Shown here one piece after another: positions 35,490-45,058 of a stretch of 64,000 nt of DNA. Each line of letters starts with the position of its first letter. Position 1 is the stretch's first letter. The stretch covers positions 62,001-126,000 of the forward strand of contig JABCZM010000001.1 of assembly GCA_013289705.1 (NCBI GenBank). Reading direction: 5' to 3'. This DNA comes from Candidatus Saccharimonadota bacterium. GTDB lineage: Bacteria; Patescibacteriota; Saccharimonadia; Saccharimonadales; UBA4665. The notes beneath the pieces were generated by a model. That model was not told the origin of the DNA, made no database searches, and saw only the letters and a program-made list of their open reading frames with translations. The translations under genes and the position numbers were made by a program.

Positions 35490-35879
35490 ATGGGCACACT
35501 TATTCCATTTCCATTCCGCAACAAGCCAGAAACCTCATCATTGCCTGAGATTAGTTCGGAGAAATCAAACGTTATTGACTTTACCTACCGGTCAGTACTG
35601 CGGATTGCAAAAGCTGAAGCTGAGGCGCTCCAAAATCCAACTCCAACTGCAGTAAGTACCGATGCAACCGCAACAGTGGTCGCTGCTACACCGGAAAACA
35701 TTGTCACGTTCGAAGATATTGCTGAAGCACGGGCACGCAAGCAAGCTGCTTTGAGTCCAACTCTTACTGGTGTTGCCGAAGATGCCATCACTGCTGTTGC
35801 AGTCGATGATGCTGAACGGGCCGGTCGAGAGCTTGCTGCCAATGAGTTAATTAATGAGGCGTATAGTGAAGCTTCTTGA
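35490..35879 (+). CDS. Hypothetical soluble Ala/Thr-rich protein (129 aa)
   Basis: Follows tatD after 17 nt. Composition is Ala, Thr, Val and Glu-rich with helical stretches (FEDIAEARARKQAAL, DDAERAGRELAANELINEA) and no TM or signal. No domain recognised. It overlaps the next gene's frame by 26 nt if that gene starts at 35854. Confidence 0.55.
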   Translation: MGTLIPFPFRNKPETSSLPEISSEKSNVIDFTYRSVLRIAKAEAEALQNPTPTAVSTDATATVVAATPENIVTFEDIAEARARKQAALSPTLTGVAEDAITAVAVDDAERAGRELAANELINEAYSEAS

Positions 35880-36228
35880 TAACATCATGGGCCAGAATGC
35901 TGACCAGCGACGCGTAAATGCTCGCCGTTCAATCTTGCACTATGGTGCCCGCATGGGGGGTGAATTATTCGGCCCAATCCCCAAAGGCCATCGACGTGAG
36001 TTCTTTTGCCTGGATGAACACACTTGGATCTGGCATGAAGAATGGATCGACAAAGATGGCAACCGCCAGATGCTCACTACGCGTTATGATATTCGCCCAA
36101 CCGGTGTGTTGAAGTCGCAGGGTGATAATTCCTATCGTCGACTTTCGCGTCAGGAAGCTCGTAACTTTTATCAGGCAGCCAAGCTTTACTACGAGCGTCT
36201 CAACACCGACCTGCAACGTATCGCCTAA
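35854..36228 (+). CDS. Hypothetical basic protein (124 aa)
   Basis: Three candidate starts: ATG 35854, GTG 35866 (with GAGG 6 nt upstream, the best Shine-Dalgarno) and ATG 35887. The conserved-looking core HYGARMGGELFGPIPKGHRR, EFFCLDEHTWIWHEEW and YDIRPTGVLK suggests a small β-domain with several Trp/His, followed by a helical tail (LSRQEARNFYQAAKLYYERL). I believe similar proteins occur widely in Saccharibacteria but know no function. Confidence 0.65.
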   Translation: MRRIVKLLDNIMGQNADQRRVNARRSILHYGARMGGELFGPIPKGHRREFFCLDEHTWIWHEEWIDKDGNRQMLTTRYDIRPTGVLKSQGDNSYRRLSRQEARNFYQAAKLYYERLNTDLQRIA

Positions 36229-37427: not shown

Positions 37428-38297
37428 ATGCTTACGTTCAAGCGAATTCTAGTCGTAGTTTGCTGCTTAGGCATGCTTTTGTTGCCTAGCACGACCAGTG
37501 CCGCTAGTACTGCTAGTAGCACGTCATCTTCTAGTAATTCCGCTACGCAAGCTGTTACCCAGGGTTATGCCACTGATACTCCGCTGCAAAAAGGCATGAT
37601 TGTCAAATTAAAAGACAATGACTCGACCAAAGTTGAGCCGTTAACCGTCAACACAGTGAGCCAAATGCAGGGCGTTGTGGTAGCTGCCAACGATGCAACC
37701 GTGACACTTTCTAGTGATGCCAACACTGGCCAGGTGTTTGTGGCAACCTTTGGCCATTACGATGTATTGGTTAGTAACCAGAACGGCCCGATTAAAAAAG
37801 GCGACTTCATTACAATATCTTCATTGGCGGGGGTTGGGATGAAAGTTGACACTACACAGTCAGTAGTCCTTGGCCGTGCCACGGCCGCTTTTAACGGTAC
37901 GGGGAATGTAGAAAGTACTGCCAAATTAAAACAAGCTGGCGGTGGTGAGTTAACGGTTTCAATTGCGCGGATTCCCGTTGACATTAGTGTGTCGCATAAC
38001 CCATTTCAACAGAATGCCGACAGAGGCTTGCAAGGGGTTCTAAATAGGGTAAGCACGCAGATTGCTGGCAAAGAAGTTGGTACGAGCCGGGCATATATCG
38101 CCCTAGTTGCATTAGCGCTAGCGGCAATGCTGTCTGGCGGCATGTTATATTCCGGCATTCGCGGAGGGTTGATTGCCATCGGTCGCAATCCGTTAGCCAA
38201 GCAATCAGTCCTTAACGGCATTTTTCGCGTCGTTGTAGCGGGGTTAATTGTTTTTATGATAGGCCTGTTTGGCGTATACTTGATCTTGAAGCTTTAG
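37428..38297 (+). CDS. c-subunit-like membrane protein with a large extracytoplasmic domain (289 aa)
   Basis: Signal peptide (~1-25, ILVVVCCLGMLLLPSTTSAAS), then a ~195-residue β-rich domain (LQKGMIVKLKDND…VQGVVV-type strands, ATFGHYDVLVSNQNGPIKKGDFITISSLAGVGM) predicted outside the membrane. A C-terminal hairpin of two TM helices (~222-252 and 260-289) follows, linked by the polar loop GRNPLAKQ. Small-residue-rich helix 1 and the RNP/RQP-type loop resemble F0 subunit c, and the topology (N-out, loop-in) agrees. The position equivalent to the ion-binding Asp61/Glu is Leu. It is upstream of the b-like gene by about 100 nt. Confidence 0.65.
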   Translation: MLTFKRILVVVCCLGMLLLPSTTSAASTASSTSSSSNSATQAVTQGYATDTPLQKGMIVKLKDNDSTKVEPLTVNTVSQMQGVVVAANDATVTLSSDANTGQVFVATFGHYDVLVSNQNGPIKKGDFITISSLAGVGMKVDTTQSVVLGRATAAFNGTGNVESTAKLKQAGGGELTVSIARIPVDISVSHNPFQQNADRGLQGVLNRVSTQIAGKEVGTSRAYIALVALALAAMLSGGMLYSGIRGGLIAIGRNPLAKQSVLNGIFRVVVAGLIVFMIGLFGVYLILKL

Positions 38298-38394
38298 CGT
38301 GTTCAGCAAAGACAGCTATTGTGCCAAAATCTTCTTCCAAGAACTGGGGAAGCCAATAGGTTGAATCTATGAAACGGTGGAAAGATACACAAAA

Positions 38395-39018
38395 ATGACA
38401 ATCTGGTGGTTGGTAGTTGTTCTGGGTTTCTTGGGTGCCGCTGGCATTGCATTTATTTGGTTGGCGGTGCGTATCGGTAGTGCCGGTGTTGGTTCGGGCA
38501 AAAATCGGACTGATTCGCTACTGGAAGATAGTGAACGAGACGTTGAGCATATTTTTAACGATGAATTTCGTGAAGAATTGCGCAATCGTGGTCGGCTGCA
38601 CTTCGAAAAAATCATCGGTGAAAACGCCATGTTTTTACAACAAGATTTGCGGTTAACGACCTCGCAACTCAACGAGTATATGAAGACCGAGATTACTCAT
38701 AAGTTAGAGGCTGAGTTCGAAAAGTACGAACAGTCGATCATGGACGCCAAGCAATTGGCCGTCGAATCGATCCAAAAAACCAACACTGCCATTGACGAAC
38801 AGCGTCAGGTCATGGGCCGTGAGCTGCAACAGGAAATTATTGCCGAAAAGCAGCAAATTGTGCAGCGTTTCGAGCAAAACATGACCGACATTATTAACCA
38901 CTACGTGTTGGCTGCAATTGGCAATCAGATTGATTTGAACGATCAGCTGGAGTTTATCCTGGCCGACCTAGAAATGAACCGACAAGCGATCATAGAGGAC
39001 ATTACTCATGGCGCCTGA
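38395..39018 (+). CDS. atpF: b-subunit-like stalk protein of the F1-like ATPase (207 aa)
   Basis: One N-terminal TM (TIWWLVVVLGFLGAAGIAFIWLAV) followed by a long, highly charged helical region, characteristic of the peripheral stalk b subunit. Sequence conservation is low, and the length is above the usual ~160. Start taken at ATG 38395 (a GTG at 38377 is possible). The next gene starts 11 nt before this stop, so translation is coupled. Identity is supported mainly by position between the c-like and delta-like genes. Confidence 0.75.
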   Translation: MTIWWLVVVLGFLGAAGIAFIWLAVRIGSAGVGSGKNRTDSLLEDSERDVEHIFNDEFREELRNRGRLHFEKIIGENAMFLQQDLRLTTSQLNEYMKTEITHKLEAEFEKYEQSIMDAKQLAVESIQKTNTAIDEQRQVMGRELQQEIIAEKQQIVQRFEQNMTDIINHYVLAAIGNQIDLNDQLEFILADLEMNRQAIIEDITHGA

Positions 39019-39553
39019 AGTGGAGCGATTTGTGGGGTTGCCACTTATTGTGGTGACGCCGGTTGATGTTGGCCGGCTTGTGCGCGAGCTAGAGACGATT
39101 GATAACGCGCTGTTGCAGCAAGAATTGCAAAAGCAAGAAGCCAAGTTGCCTAAAACCACCAGGTTCATGGATGAGCTTATTGACCTCAACAAGCTTAACT
39201 TGCTTGATAAGGCTGAACGCTTGCGACTAAAGCAGTTTCTGGCGGTTGTAAAACAACGTGCACCACTGTTGCACGTGAGTTTTGGTGCCGATCCGTCATC
39301 AATTTTTGTTGAAAAAGTAGTGGACTGGCTACGGGAAAATATTCATCCACTAACATTGATGACCATTGGTCTGCAACCCACTATTGGTGCCGGCTGCTTA
39401 ATACGAACAACCAACAAATATTTTGACTTCTCGCTCAGTAAACACCTTGGCGAAAATCGTGAATTACTCATGAAAGCACTACGTGAGAGCATAGCGACTA
39501 CCGCGACAACACCTCCTCAGCCTGCCACGCAAACGGCAGAGGTAGCTGCATGA
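39008..39553 (+). CDS. atpH: delta-like subunit of the F1-like ATPase (181 aa)
   Basis: The C-terminal part [33 protein letters not shown] corresponds to the delta/OSCP strand (…P.LIGG..I…D…D.S…L). The N-terminal half is helical. In F-ATPases this subunit links the stalk to the top of the alpha3beta3 head. It overlaps the b-like gene by 11 nt and the alpha gene by 4 nt (ATGA). N-terminal homology is weak. Confidence 0.75.
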
Positions 39554-41175
39554 GTTCCGGCAATCACCACTTCGATACATTAGTCGCTGCCGGTAATCCG
39601 GTTGGCGAAGTTATTGCTGTCGATAGATTTCTGGTTAAGGTTAATGGCCTGCAACCCTGTGCCATCCACGCTTTGATTCTATTCGAAGACGGTAGTAAGG
39701 GTTTTGTGCATCAGGTATACGAAGATCACGTGGTAATTTTACACTTGGGCGCTGATATTCTGAGGACCGGTACGATTGCAGTGGTGCAACACCAGGAACT
39801 TGTCTGTAAAGTTGGCAAAGATTTTATTGGTCGCGTTGTGACGGTTACCGGTGAGCCACTTGACGGTAAGGGTCCGATTGCTGCCGCAGCCGCTTGGCCG
39901 GTGTTTAATGTCGCACCACCACTGTACGAGCGCAAACTGGTTGAAGACCAGGTAGAAAGTGGTGTCACGGTCATCGATGCATTGTTCCCAATCGTTCGTG
40001 GACAGCGTATGGCGTTGCTTGGCGACAGCAAATCAGGTAAGAGTACCGTGGTAACTCAGCTGGCTATCAACCAGAAAAATACCGATCAGATCGTGGTCTA
40101 TTGCTTGATAGCCAAGCGCCGTAGTGATGTCGACACGTTGCTGACGCGCCTCGAAGAAAATGGTGGTATGGAAAAAGCCATCGTGGTGGTAAGCACTATG
40201 TTTGAGTCATTAATTATGAGTTACTTGGCACCTTATATTGCCTGTTCGATGGCTGAATATTTGTGGCAAAAGTGTAACCAAGACACGATTATTATCTACG
40301 ATGATCTTACAAGCCACGCCCACGCCTACCGTGAAGTCGCCTTGCTCTCTGGTGTTAGCCCAGGGCGCGATAGTTATCCGGGCGACATGTTTTATGCGCA
40401 CTCCAGCTTGCTTGAACGAGCTGGTCGCCTCAATAGCACCGGTTGCTGTCTTACCAGTGTGCCGGTGGTGCATGCCACCAACGGCGACATCACGGCCTAT
40501 CTGCCAACCAACATCATGTCGATTACGGATGGTCAGTGGATTTTGGACATGAGCATCTTCCGGAACGGTATTCGTCCAGCCCTAAACATTGGGCTTAGTG
40601 TGACTCGTGCGGGTGGTGTTGGCCACAATAAGCGCCAGAAAGCACTCGCCGCCGAAACATTGAAGATTTTGGCCGACTATCGGCAGGCCGAGGAATTTTC
40701 GCACTTTGGGTCGGAACTTGGCCCAGAAGCGAAGCAGGCGCTGTCGGTTGGTAAAAACCTGTTTCAGATTCTTACACAAAGCCCATCGGACACGTATTCG
40801 CTGATGGCGCAGCAGCTGATGATGGACATTGTGCTGCACCTAGAGGACGGCGCCGAAATCGATACAAACGCTTTGAAGCTGTCTGTGCATGAAGCCGCCA
40901 AAAAAGTCACCAAAGACGAGGAGTTTGATGCTGCCCGTGATGAACTCAAAGCAAGAGTCATGACCAAGCAAGCCTCATTACCTGCACCGGCCGAAGGCGA
41001 GGACGCACCAAAAGAAGCTCCCGCCGACAGCCCCAAAGATGATAAGGGTAGAAAAGACAAAAAATCAGACCCCATAAAGATCCCCGAACCAGACCCCAAT
41101 CATCCCAAAAAATCCACCGAGGAAATCGTTGAAGAATCCAAGAAACAATTCGCTGAAGTGGGTATAAAGACATGA
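39550..41175 (+). CDS. atpA: F1-type ATPase alpha subunit with unusual Walker A and C-terminal extension (541 aa)
   Basis: Regulatory nucleotide-binding subunit of the hexameric head. Core motifs: [17 protein letters not shown], Walker [10 protein letters not shown] (158-166; canonical GDRQTGKT), [67 protein letters not shown] and [10 protein letters not shown] (the Arg finger position is kept). Residues ~478-541 form a highly charged tail ([19 protein letters not shown]…[11 protein letters not shown]) not found in usual alpha subunits. It overlaps delta and gamma genes by 4 nt each. Confidence 0.92.
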
Positions 41176-42038
41176 GACAGCCAAAAGATATTGCCCGCGA
41201 TGAACTCGCGCTGGGTACACTTGTAGAACTAACGGGTGTGTTTGAGGGTATTGCCAGCATGAAGATCGCTCAGACCAAAAACCAAGTGCTGGAATCCACA
41301 AAATTCTTTAACGCGCTGTGGAAGATTTATTCTCAGTTGCGAGTTGACTCGTTGTTTGGTTTTGGCCGCGAAAATACACATGAAAAAGAACTCATCGACA
41401 AAGAACTGTACGTTGTAATCACCGCCGAAGGAGGCTTTAGTGGCGATATCGATCAGAAAGTGATGAACCTGTTGCTCGATAGTTACGACAAAGAAAAAAA
41501 CGACATTATTGTTATTGGGCACCACGGCGCCATCCAGCTAGCGCAGCGGGGCATTGGTTTTAAGAAGTATTTTAAACTGCCAACCAAAGACAGAAACATC
41601 AATGTTATACCAATTATCAACGAAGTCCAGCAATATAAAAGCGCCAGTGTGTTCTATCAGGAATATGTGTCGTTGATGGACCAGGCGGTGAATCGTATTA
41701 GCCTGTCGAGCGCCGTGAAGGAGCGTGGTGATGCGAGCGACCATCCCGACGAAATTATTAGCGAAGAAACCTACATTTTTGAACCGAATAGTTATGCGGT
41801 GGCCGCACACTTGGAGCGATCGATGATGGAAATTGCCATCAGTCAGCTGATTTTGGATTCCAAACTTGCACAGTATGCCAGCCGTTTTCGGGCGATGAGC
41901 GCATCGCATCAGCGTGCCGATGAGTCAAAGGGCGAGTTGCACCTAGAATTTAACCGTTCACGCCGAGCAATCAAAGACGCGCGTTTGAAAGAAATTATAA
42001 ATGGCATCAAAAAAAGCCAAGCGGCGGTGAAGTCGTAA
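41172..42038 (+). CDS. atpG: F1-type ATPase gamma subunit (288 aa)
   Basis: The central rotor shaft. The N-terminal coiled-coil segment ([27 protein letters not shown]) and the C-terminal segment [41 protein letters not shown] match the two long helices of gamma (the latter resembles SRM.AM..AT.NA…L.L.YN..RQA.IT.E). The central Rossmann-like domain contains [12 protein letters not shown]. Overlaps alpha by 4 nt and beta by 1 nt. Confidence 0.88.
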
Positions 42039-43342
42039 TGGCGGGTATTATTGTATCGCTCAAAGATCTTATTGTGCGCGTCCAGTTTGACGAAGATCTG
42101 CCGAGCGTCAACGAGCTGGTGGCAGTAGATAACCCACAAAAAACCGAGCTGTTAGTTGATCATCTAGAAGTTGGTGGTGTGGCGTTTTGCTTGAATGTTC
42201 GAACCGATCGTAGCCTGCAAAAAGGCATGACGGCCCAGCGTACACACCGTGGTATTCAAATCCCGTTGGGCGAAGTGACTATTGGGCACATTATGAACGC
42301 ACTGGGTGACTCTTTGGACGGTCAGCCACGTATTGATGGCCCTGATGTCAGGCGCAAAGAAATCATGCAACTGCCGCCAAAAAGCTCTAACTTCTCTGCC
42401 AGTAAACCGGAAATTTTGGAAACTGGCATTAAAGTTATCGACTTCTTTACTCCGTTTGTAAAAGGCCGCAAGATTGGTGTCATTGGTGGTGCCGGTGTTG
42501 GTAAAACCGTGGTAACCATGGAACTGATTAATAACACTGCTCGGAGTGGATCAAGCCTGTCATTCTTTGCTGGTATTGGTGAGCGTATTCGTGAAGGTCA
42601 CGAACTGTGGGATACACTACGCGAAAATGATCTGCTCAAAAACACAGTAATGTTCTTTGCACAGATGAATGAAAACCCCGTGCAGCGTTCACTCATTGGT
42701 ATCAGTGCCACTGCCGCTGCCGAACATTTCCGCGACGACCAGCACAAAGACATCTTGTTCTTTGCGGACAACATGTTTCGACACGTTCAGGCGCGTAACG
42801 AGCTATCGACTATTCTTGACCAAGTGCCAAACGAGGGTGGCTATGAGCCAACAATCTTTAGCGATGTAAAAACGCTGCAAGATCGCTTGAGTTCCAACGA
42901 AAACGGTTCGATTACTTCGGTGCAGACCATCTATGTGCCGGCTGACGATATTTCCGACCCCGCCGTGCAGTTTATCCAGCACGAAATGGACTCGATTTTG
43001 GTGCTTAGCCGTAAGGTTGCAGAGCAGGGAATCCGTCCGGCTGTAGATATTAACTCGTCGTCGTCGTCACTGCTGACGCCCGAAATTGTTGGTGATCGCC
43101 ACTATTTGCTCAGCGTTCAGGTAATGGCGTTGCTGCAAAAATATGAATCCCTCAAGGGCATTATCGCCATTATTGGTGAAAGCGAACTGAGTCCGGTTGA
43201 TCGTTCGGACTTCGCCAAAGCCAAAAATCTTATCAAAAACTTCACCCAAAATATGAACGTAATGACCAAACATACTGGTGTCCCAGGCGACTACTTCAGC
43301 CGCGAAGAAACGCTTAAAAGTATCGAAGAAATCATCGTCTAA
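42038..43342 (+). CDS. atpD: F1-type ATPase beta subunit, divergent (434 aa)
   Basis: The catalytic subunit. Walker A IGGAGVGKTV (149-158), catalytic Glu and Arg in GIGERIREGHEL (E182, R183), FFADNMFRHVQARNE, GSITSVQTIYVPADDISDPA, and the C-terminal torque loop ESELSPVDR where DELSEED is usual. So catalytic residues are retained but the coupling loop and several surface segments are changed. Shorter than the typical 460-480 residues. ATP hydrolysis seems chemically possible. Confidence 0.9.
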   Translation: MAGIIVSLKDLIVRVQFDEDLPSVNELVAVDNPQKTELLVDHLEVGGVAFCLNVRTDRSLQKGMTAQRTHRGIQIPLGEVTIGHIMNALGDSLDGQPRIDGPDVRRKEIMQLPPKSSNFSASKPEILETGIKVIDFFTPFVKGRKIGVIGGAGVGKTVVTMELINNTARSGSSLSFFAGIGERIREGHELWDTLRENDLLKNTVMFFAQMNENPVQRSLIGISATAAAEHFRDDQHKDILFFADNMFRHVQARNELSTILDQVPNEGGYEPTIFSDVKTLQDRLSSNENGSITSVQTIYVPADDISDPAVQFIQHEMDSILVLSRKVAEQGIRPAVDINSSSSSLLTPEIVGDRHYLLSVQVMALLQKYESLKGIIAIIGESELSPVDRSDFAKAKNLIKNFTQNMNVMTKHTGVPGDYFSREETLKSIEEIIV

Positions 43343-43448: not shown

Positions 43449-43784
43449 ATGAGTGACGAGGCGAAGCCGGCAGAGGGTGTGGCAGGCACTGGCGCAATCG
43501 GACAGGCTAATGCCAAGTCTGACAAGAGCGAGTCAGACGCTACGACAATGCAGGTTAAGGTCCATTCGCCGTTCAAGGTGTATTACGAAGGCGTGGCTAG
43601 CAGTATTAGTGCCGAAAGTGCCACTGGACCATTCGATATTTTGCCTGAGCATCACAACTTTATTACGTTGTTAGTGCCCTGTGATTTGGTTATTCGGAAT
43701 GGTAAGAATGAGGAGGTGGTTGCTATATCAGGCGGGATCATGCACGTAAAAGCCGACGATGTAATCGTCTTTCTGGACGTCTAG
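43449..43784 (+). CDS. atpC: F1-type ATPase epsilon subunit, short form (111 aa)
   Basis: A ~30-residue polar N-terminal extension, then the epsilon β-sandwich: MQVKVHSPFKVYYEGVASSI, GPFDILPEHHNFITLL, and VAISGGIMHVKADDVIVFL. The usual C-terminal two-helix inhibitory domain is absent, so the regulation by epsilon seen in E. coli cannot operate. Last gene of the ATPase cluster, 106 nt after beta. Confidence 0.85.
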   Translation: MSDEAKPAEGVAGTGAIGQANAKSDKSESDATTMQVKVHSPFKVYYEGVASSISAESATGPFDILPEHHNFITLLVPCDLVIRNGKNEEVVAISGGIMHVKADDVIVFLDV

Positions 43785-43954: not shown

Positions 43955-44950
43955 CTAGTCGAGCACTATGTAGTCGTAGCCAAAGGCTTGGCCGGCGGGG
44001 GGTGAGGTGGCCGTGCAGACGGTAAAGCCGGTAGTGGTGCGGGTGACGTAGTAGGCGATGCCAGCGGCGGCGGCTTCGACTGGGGTGACCACGACGTGTG
44101 GGGTAGTGTTGAATTTAGTAGTAAAGGTTACGGTTACAAAACAGCCTGCAACGGGGCTTCCACCAGTGTTAATGGTGATTGAGCCGGCGGTATCGGAACC
44201 ACTAACTGATGTGGTGCCACCACCGCCAAGCGCGCTGCCGTTAGTGCGGGCTGGTGTTGCGCCGCCGGCACTGATGTGGTGTGTTAGGAGTAGGTCACCG
44301 TTGAGTTGCAGGGTATTCACGCTCAATTGTGGTGCCGAGAGCACGCCACTGAACGTGCCGCTGCCATTAACAGTAATGCCTTTTTGAATCGACAGTTGGC
44401 CCTGCAGTGCAGTATCACCGGCAACGGTTAAGTTTTTGTTAATCTGCGCCGTGTCAAAGATGCTACTGCCCGATACGGTAACGCCGGTTAATGACAGATC
44501 ACCTCCAACTTGTAGCTTGCCAGCAACTTCAAGATCTTTGCGGATTAATACTTGGCCGGCAAACACGGCGTTACTTTGGACGTTCAAGGTTTGTTTGACG
44601 TCACCAACCGTGACGTCACTACTGGCCAGTTGGCTGACGCTGCTTTGGGGCAGGGTTTGGCTAGAAATCTGGCCTGTTGGCTTGGTGTGGCCGCGCAGAT
44701 ACGAAATAGCAACCACTATAACGGCGATAACCACCACAAAGACAAACAGCAATAAGTAGATGCTAAAGTGTCGAAACAAGGCCTTGACGCCACCTTTTTT
44801 TGGCTTTTTTGTTTCGGGGCTAGTAATGGCAACCTCGGCTTTTACCGCCTGCTCGTCGCTACCTTCAAGTGATGCACCCTCTTGTGCATCTGTATCTGCC
44901 TGGCTAAGAGCCTCTGTTGGCTTGTCGCCGCTAGGATTTTCGTCTGCCAT
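43955..44950 (-). CDS. Membrane protein with bactofilin-like β-helix repeats (331 aa)
   Basis: A cytoplasmic acidic N-terminus (~1-55), one TM (~67-90, FSIYLLLFVFVVVIAVIVVAI), then an outside region. It starts with a Ser/Gln linker and continues with six-residue-periodic repeats (VFAGQVLIRKDLEVAGKLQV, GDLSLTGVTVSG, NLTVAGDTALQGQLSI…) typical of right-handed β-helices such as bactofilins. The C-terminal domain (~255-331, GCFVTVTFTTKFNTTPHVVVTPVEAAA) contains two Cys. Start set at the second ATG (44950); surface location is inferred. Confidence 0.75.
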   Translation of the reverse strand: MADENPSGDKPTEALSQADTDAQEGASLEGSDEQAVKAEVAITSPETKKPKKGGVKALFRHFSIYLLLFVFVVVIAVIVVAISYLRGHTKPTGQISSQTLPQSSVSQLASSDVTVGDVKQTLNVQSNAVFAGQVLIRKDLEVAGKLQVGGDLSLTGVTVSGSSIFDTAQINKNLTVAGDTALQGQLSIQKGITVNGSGTFSGVLSAPQLSVNTLQLNGDLLLTHHISAGGATPARTNGSALGGGGTTSVSGSDTAGSITINTGGSPVAGCFVTVTFTTKFNTTPHVVVTPVEAAAAGIAYYVTRTTTGFTVCTATSPPAGQAFGYDYIVLD

Positions 44951-45058
44951 CTCTATCCCCACTACGTAACTATCACTACTCTTATGCTAATAATACCATG
45001 GCCGCTACCGTAAGCGCATTGCCTTTCGGCGTAAAATTTAGGACAATAGGTAGTAGCT

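Follow-up and report, generated by a model that had tools for sequence, protein, structure and literature searches.

A second F1-type ATPase operon of Saccharibacteria and other Patescibacteria begins with an F0 subunit c relative that carries a secreted domain and no longer has the ion-binding carboxylate

The locus lies in a 64,000-nucleotide stretch of DNA, here called the window, from contig JABCZM010000001.1 (positions 62,001 to 126,000) of the 1.24 Mb genome of a Candidatus Saccharimonadota bacterium (GCA_013289705.1). A gene on the forward strand (37428..38297) encodes a 289 aa protein, designated Cx, composed of a signal peptide, a beta domain and a transmembrane (TM) hairpin of the subunit c type. 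The reading frame is open throughout and homologues were found in 74/99 related genomes, one of which (G095) has only a weak match to the domain; these homologues rule out a chance or spurious reading frame. Hydropathy placed a signal segment at residues 1–19 and TM segments at residues 222–240 and 268–286. The predicted signal peptide covers about residues 1–25 (37428..37502), and the beta domain, predicted to lie outside the cell, covers about residues 44–190 (37557..37997). In the AlphaFold2 model, built with 58 homologues and having a mean pLDDT of 91.8, the beta domain is accompanied by two long helices, residues 219–253 and 255–288, which form the hairpin (38082..38291) and are joined at Gly252-Arg253-Asn254-Pro255. 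This GRNP loop (38181..38192) is near-invariant in the family. An earlier note on this DNA had proposed a signal peptide followed by an outside domain of ~195 residues; both elements are present, the beta domain, predicted to be outside, being smaller at ~150 residues.

Foldseek was used to compare the beta domain with known structures. The matches were decoration proteins of Pam3, BB1, Sf11 and XM1, and matches in BFVD were appendage and fibre proteins. The fold is that of trimeric phage capsid-decoration and preneck appendage proteins, lambda gpD included. In contrast to these phage proteins Cx is bacterial and its domain sits between a signal peptide and a membrane hairpin, with sequence identity of only 8–24%. 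Proteins of 1000–4400 aa also contain the domain. Because its relatives are trimers, a trimer of Cx hairpins is possible.

The earlier note had staked its reading of residues 222–289 on a resemblance to F0 subunit c. Pfam detected no ATP-synt_C match in the Cx sequence of the window, so profiles were needed, and a phmmer search of the PDB with the single sequence found nothing. A phylum-wide profile, built from 73 hairpins, was searched against 177,635 PDB sequences at E values up to 10. 12/12 matches were subunit c, the best of them (E = 1.1e-4) spanning nearly the whole hairpin. In a Foldseek search of the PDB the modelled hairpin superposed on the c subunits of Chloroflexus (9itt_I, TMt 0.88, rmsd 1.1 Å) and Bacillus PS3 (6n2d_c0, TMt 0.85). 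PF00137 matches members of the Cx family weakly and independently (10.6–19 bits, below the Pfam cut-off of 24). Hairpins from Saccharibacteria only were aligned with subunit c by hhalign at E = 3.8e-5; this comparison was dropped as proof of homology, and the phylum-wide PDB profile used instead, because a control in which the TM columns were shuffled and the loop was left intact gave the same score. Within the Saccharibacteria set alone the sequence signal stems from the GRNP loop. The resemblance is thus present in both the PDB profile and the Foldseek search, and sequence profile and predicted fold together establish that the Cx hairpin is homologous to F0 subunit c. Cx shares with subunit c the two-helix hairpin and the (A/G)R(N/Q)P polar loop, the part of subunit c that contacts gamma and epsilon.

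Subunit c has an ion-binding Asp or Glu in helix 2, and in our canonical comparison set an acidic residue falls inside the Pro+14 to +21 window in 30/30 sequences. The position of this carboxylate in Cx is occupied by Leu273 (Pro+18, codon 38244..38246). The final acidic residue of Cx is Glu216, ahead of helix 1, so helix 2 has none, and on both points the earlier note was correct. It had also singled out the Leu position as the one to examine in homologues. Pro+18 is non-acidic in 155/155 distinct members of the Cx family, being L, I, V, F, A, G, T or M. Two Cx proteins (L253:2066-2890 and L258:4709-5533) have Asp at Pro+17, one position before the carboxylate site, and Asn occurs in helix 2 of some distant members. 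The ion-binding carboxylate of subunit c is missing from the family, and neither check proposed in the earlier note, on c similarity or on a carboxylate at the site in homologues, refuted it.

Six genes follow Cx on the forward strand and make up the remainder of a second F1-type operon, designated F1x, which the earlier note did not mention. Bx (38377..39018) has one N-terminal TM followed by a long helix. Its operon position and layout suggest a b-like peripheral stalk; the N-terminal TM was found in 74/79 members of its family and an ATP-synt_B match in only 1/31. Dx (39008..39553) is a delta/OSCP-type subunit: PF00213 matched 29/34 members of its family (best 3.2e-9) and did not match the Dx sequence of the window by itself. 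Pfam and motifs identified an alpha-like subunit (39550..41175) with Walker A GDSKSGKS and the Arg-finger motif SVTRAG. It is followed by a gamma-like subunit (41172..42038; PF00231, 1.5e-30) with matches to F1 gamma in the PDB. The beta-like catalytic subunit (42038..43342) carries GGAGVGKT and GIGER and was assigned by Pfam, motifs and tree. Last is an epsilon-like subunit (43449..43784; PF02823, 3e-16) consisting of the beta-sandwich domain only. Catalytic motifs are retained across the family: the beta Walker A in 155/155, the catalytic GE[RL] in 150/155 and the alpha Arg finger in 154/165 sequences. With alpha, beta, gamma, delta and epsilon accompanied by these motifs and by a b-like stalk, the F1 of the operon appears from its sequence to be complete and catalytically competent. 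The syntenic block also includes, in most relatives, a gene for a conserved 124-aa protein with no assigned function (35854-36228(+) here).

Pfam detected no subunit a among the genes of the operon. The source genome has a single subunit a and a single canonical c; their genes belong to a normal operon of eight genes that lies apart, on a different contig, and a search elsewhere in this genome for a second subunit a found none. Like F1Fo ATP synthase, F1x has a c-type hairpin fold with an RNP loop, and its b, delta, alpha, gamma, beta and epsilon genes follow in the same order. It differs in having no subunit a, no carboxylate, an added secreted domain, an epsilon reduced to the beta-sandwich and a beta subunit of a separate clade: F1x and canonical beta sequences form two clades in a FastTree phylogeny, with split support of 1.0. 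The separate clade, the retained catalytic motifs and conservation across the phylum rule out a degenerate duplicate of the normal operon. At least eight genomes of 92–99% completeness have F1x and Cx while PF00119 (subunit a) is absent altogether. G082, G083 and G090 have neither subunit a nor a canonical c above the cut-off, and G161, G201, G318, G323 and G366 have neither subunit a nor a canonical beta; G201 and G366 are single-contig genomes. F1x and Cx are independent of any subunit a.

The operon Cx-Bx-Dx-alpha-gamma-beta-epsilon is conserved across the order and the phylum. The order MetG-TatD-IscS-Cx-Bx-Dx-alpha-gamma-beta-epsilon, followed by a convergent fibre gene, recurs at dozens of loci, and Bx adjoins Cx in 78/78 Cx loci of named genomes. 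The complete TM7i chromosome (CP075337.1) contains the whole Cx operon and the fibre gene. Proteins with the Cx architecture are also encoded beside an F1 set in many other Patescibacteria families. Among the 99 genomes, 71 have both F1x and Cx, 11 have F1x only, 2 have Cx only and 15 have neither (odds ratio 48, p = 4e-9, a value that ignores shared ancestry). The hairpin profile detected no Cx-type hairpin in nine genomes with F1x (G006, G016, G020, G021, G023, G027, G034, G050 and G057); in the other two, G058 and G095, a contig end may cut the locus. A hidden replacement for Cx was sought in the Cx-less genomes and rejected, as the profile found canonical c only and a weak candidate in G021 (C44) proved not to encode a Cx-type protein when the DNA was read. 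Since about nine genomes keep an intact F1x operon without Cx, Cx is not indispensable to F1x. These genomes may represent either a second mode of F1x, perhaps with a normal c ring, or an F1x on its way out.

Convergent to the operon, on the reverse strand (43955..44962), lies a gene for a predicted surface fibre with a cytoplasmic N-terminus, a TM segment at residues 68–86, a bactofilin-like stalk and a lectin-like head. The protein has weak matches to tailspikes and to Helix pomatia agglutinin. Among Saccharimonadia F1x loci with enough flanking sequence, the fibre gene was found downstream of the operon in 36/45 loci with Cx and 0/14 loci without it (p = 6e-8, ancestry ignored). In distant Patescibacteria a giant fibre of a different kind occupies this place, and in 14/18 genomes its gene is no more than ~2 kb from Cx/F1x, as measured from coordinates. 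These proteins have a MerR-type N-terminal domain, a single TM detected in most, and a fibre that can reach several thousand residues; one carries a Peptidase_S74 chaperone domain. Pairs of Cx, or a paralogue, with a fibre gene of the type found in the window also occur away from F1 at three loci (L079, L085 and L091). Cx is genetically linked to membrane-anchored fibre genes.

Individual loci show further arrangements. Cx and the fibre gene have been lost together from L270, L271, L273, L275, L280 and L282, where an intact F1x operon occupies its usual place. MerR-type giant fibre genes adjoin the operon at L190:2-7606(-), L160:166-8619(+) and L163:14127-17000(+), with open frames of up to 8,840 aa; a domain of DNA-binding type is thereby part of a predicted surface protein. 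A Cx paralogue (G000:C1:60336-61154(-), a short way upstream of the window, and L032:10334-11155), about 30% identical to Cx, shares the GRNPLAK loop and has no carboxylate. It adjoins a 677-aa membrane-anchored fibre gene, F1 genes being absent nearby, and such pairs recur in other genomes. At L041 (G093) Cx stands last in the operon instead of first, with epsilon on one side and the convergent fibre gene on the other. In family f114 (L154, L155, L156 and L157) two Cx genes of differing type flank one F1x operon, and in 3/4 of these loci a block of secreted and membrane proteins separates one Cx from the operon. A record labelled "Chloroflexi bacterium" (L248, SEAL01000032.1) contains a Saccharibacteria-type operon and is probably a mislabelled or mixed bin.

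The known systems closest in organization are the F1-like X0 ATPase (Type 3, MMCAP2_0575-0581) of mycoplasmas and the G1-ATPase (Type 2) of Mycoplasma mobile gliding (PMC12994834). As that paper describes, these are also second F1-type alpha, beta, gamma and epsilon sets beside a normal ATP synthase, have no recognisable a or c and direct their work to the cell surface. One of their proteins, MMCAP2_0577/MMOB1650, matches Cx in gross layout, with a signal peptide, an outside part and a pair of TMs at the C-terminus; the available text of the paper reports no homology of this protein to subunit c. A 12-TM protein belongs to the mycoplasma sets, which have neither b nor delta; the F1x operon has no 12-TM protein and does include delta and b-like subunits. 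The phylum and the partners differ as well. Because F0-less mycoplasma ATPases already include a protein laid out like Cx, the "new kind of rotor" of the earlier note somewhat overstates the novelty. The literature searched, whose scope excluded subscription journals and preprints, yielded no paper on a Patescibacteria counterpart or on the F1x-Cx system.

On balance we favour, with moderate confidence, a model in which F1x moves a non-conducting rotor or adaptor of the c type whose outside domains act on surface fibres. Cx would descend from F0 subunit c by loss of the carboxylate and addition of a secreted beta domain, and would serve as the membrane output part of an ATPase built from alpha, beta, gamma, epsilon-N, delta and b-like subunits with no subunit a. 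Cytoplasmic ATP hydrolysis by F1x would most likely turn gamma and epsilon, these would hold on to a Cx assembly by its conserved GRNP loops, with the b-like/delta stalk resisting. As such an assembly could not bind ions in the usual way and subunit a is absent, the work of F1x would go to the outside beta domains and then to the fibres. Rotation or step-wise torque would pass through the two helices to the beta domains, and these may act on the membrane-anchored fibres encoded next door. The fibres may function in adhesion or in gripping or moving on the host cell, or the work may go into fibre assembly. F1x is probably a second motor head of Saccharibacteria and many other Patescibacteria that spends ATP on the cell surface and not on ATP synthesis. 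A bolder version, in which a phylum-wide rotary ATPase turns a ring of ion-dead, c-derived subunits whose outside arms spin or ratchet and drive giant trimeric host-cell fibres, is possible and is put forward tentatively. The interpretation in the earlier note is supported in part, by the c homology, the carboxylate loss, the predicted outside position of the beta domain and the F1 operon without subunit a; its simple version is weakened by the genomes with F1x and no Cx, which are the main fact left unexplained by the motor model. Cx paralogues beside fibre genes with no F1 nearby also count against the model, as do the loop-derived sequence signal within Saccharibacteria and the lack of an evident holder for the b-like stator when subunit a is absent.

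Alternatively, Cx might be an adaptor that stays static in the membrane, perhaps as a trimer, and F1x a conformational ATPase or one for fibre assembly or release, with no continuous rotation, a mode also proposed, by analogy, for the mycoplasma MIB-MIP ATPase. The trimeric state of the phage proteins closest in fold to the beta domain is consistent with such an adaptor, as are the probably trimeric fibres and the absence of subunit a and of an obvious extra stator anchor. The mycoplasma X0 ATPase, which has the Cx layout in one subunit, is likewise one for which PMC12994834 demonstrates no rotation. A static adaptor nevertheless seems unlikely, if worth keeping in mind, because delta, the b-like stalk, gamma, epsilon-N and the c-type hairpin with its loop, all needs of a rotary machine, have been kept. 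It is still less probable that F1x is an alternative head on an ordinary a/c ring and Cx an accessory fibre protein reusing an old c hairpin as its anchor. F1x without Cx does occur, 4/4 such genomes tested keep a canonical subunit a, and Cx-fibre pairs exist away from F1x. However, this reading is difficult to reconcile with the at least eight nearly complete genomes that lack subunit a and yet have F1x and Cx, five of which on checking also have no canonical beta, with the b and delta that F1x has of its own, and with the usual position of Cx as first gene of the F1x operon across the phylum.

Two further explanations are very improbable. Cx could be an unrelated surface protein that converged on a short hairpin with an RNP loop, as the loop-derived score within Saccharibacteria and the failure of single Cx sequences to match Pfam might suggest. 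That explanation is largely refuted by the wider profile, which matches subunit c exclusively and across the full hairpin, by the 1.1 Å fold match and operon context, and by the weak PF00137 matches to independent family members. We give scarcely any credence to an unusual ion pump in which Cx moves ions through another residue. The Asp one position before the site in L253 and L258 and the Asn in helix 2 of some distant members might be taken to suggest one, but helix 2 is acid-free in nearly all members and subunit a is absent from the operon and, in several genomes, altogether.

The results point to some F-type operons in this phylum that cannot be ATP synthases, because they have no subunit a and their c-like subunit has no ion-binding residue. 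Cx also gives a concrete lead on a puzzle in mycoplasmas, the two-TM subunit of the ATPases for gliding and antibody release. TM7i, which carries the operon, is in culture, so the system can be tested now. The machinery with which these parasites grip their hosts is poorly known. If the motor reading holds, they would possess a rotary engine that delivers its output outside the cell, by doing mechanical work on the surface fibres.
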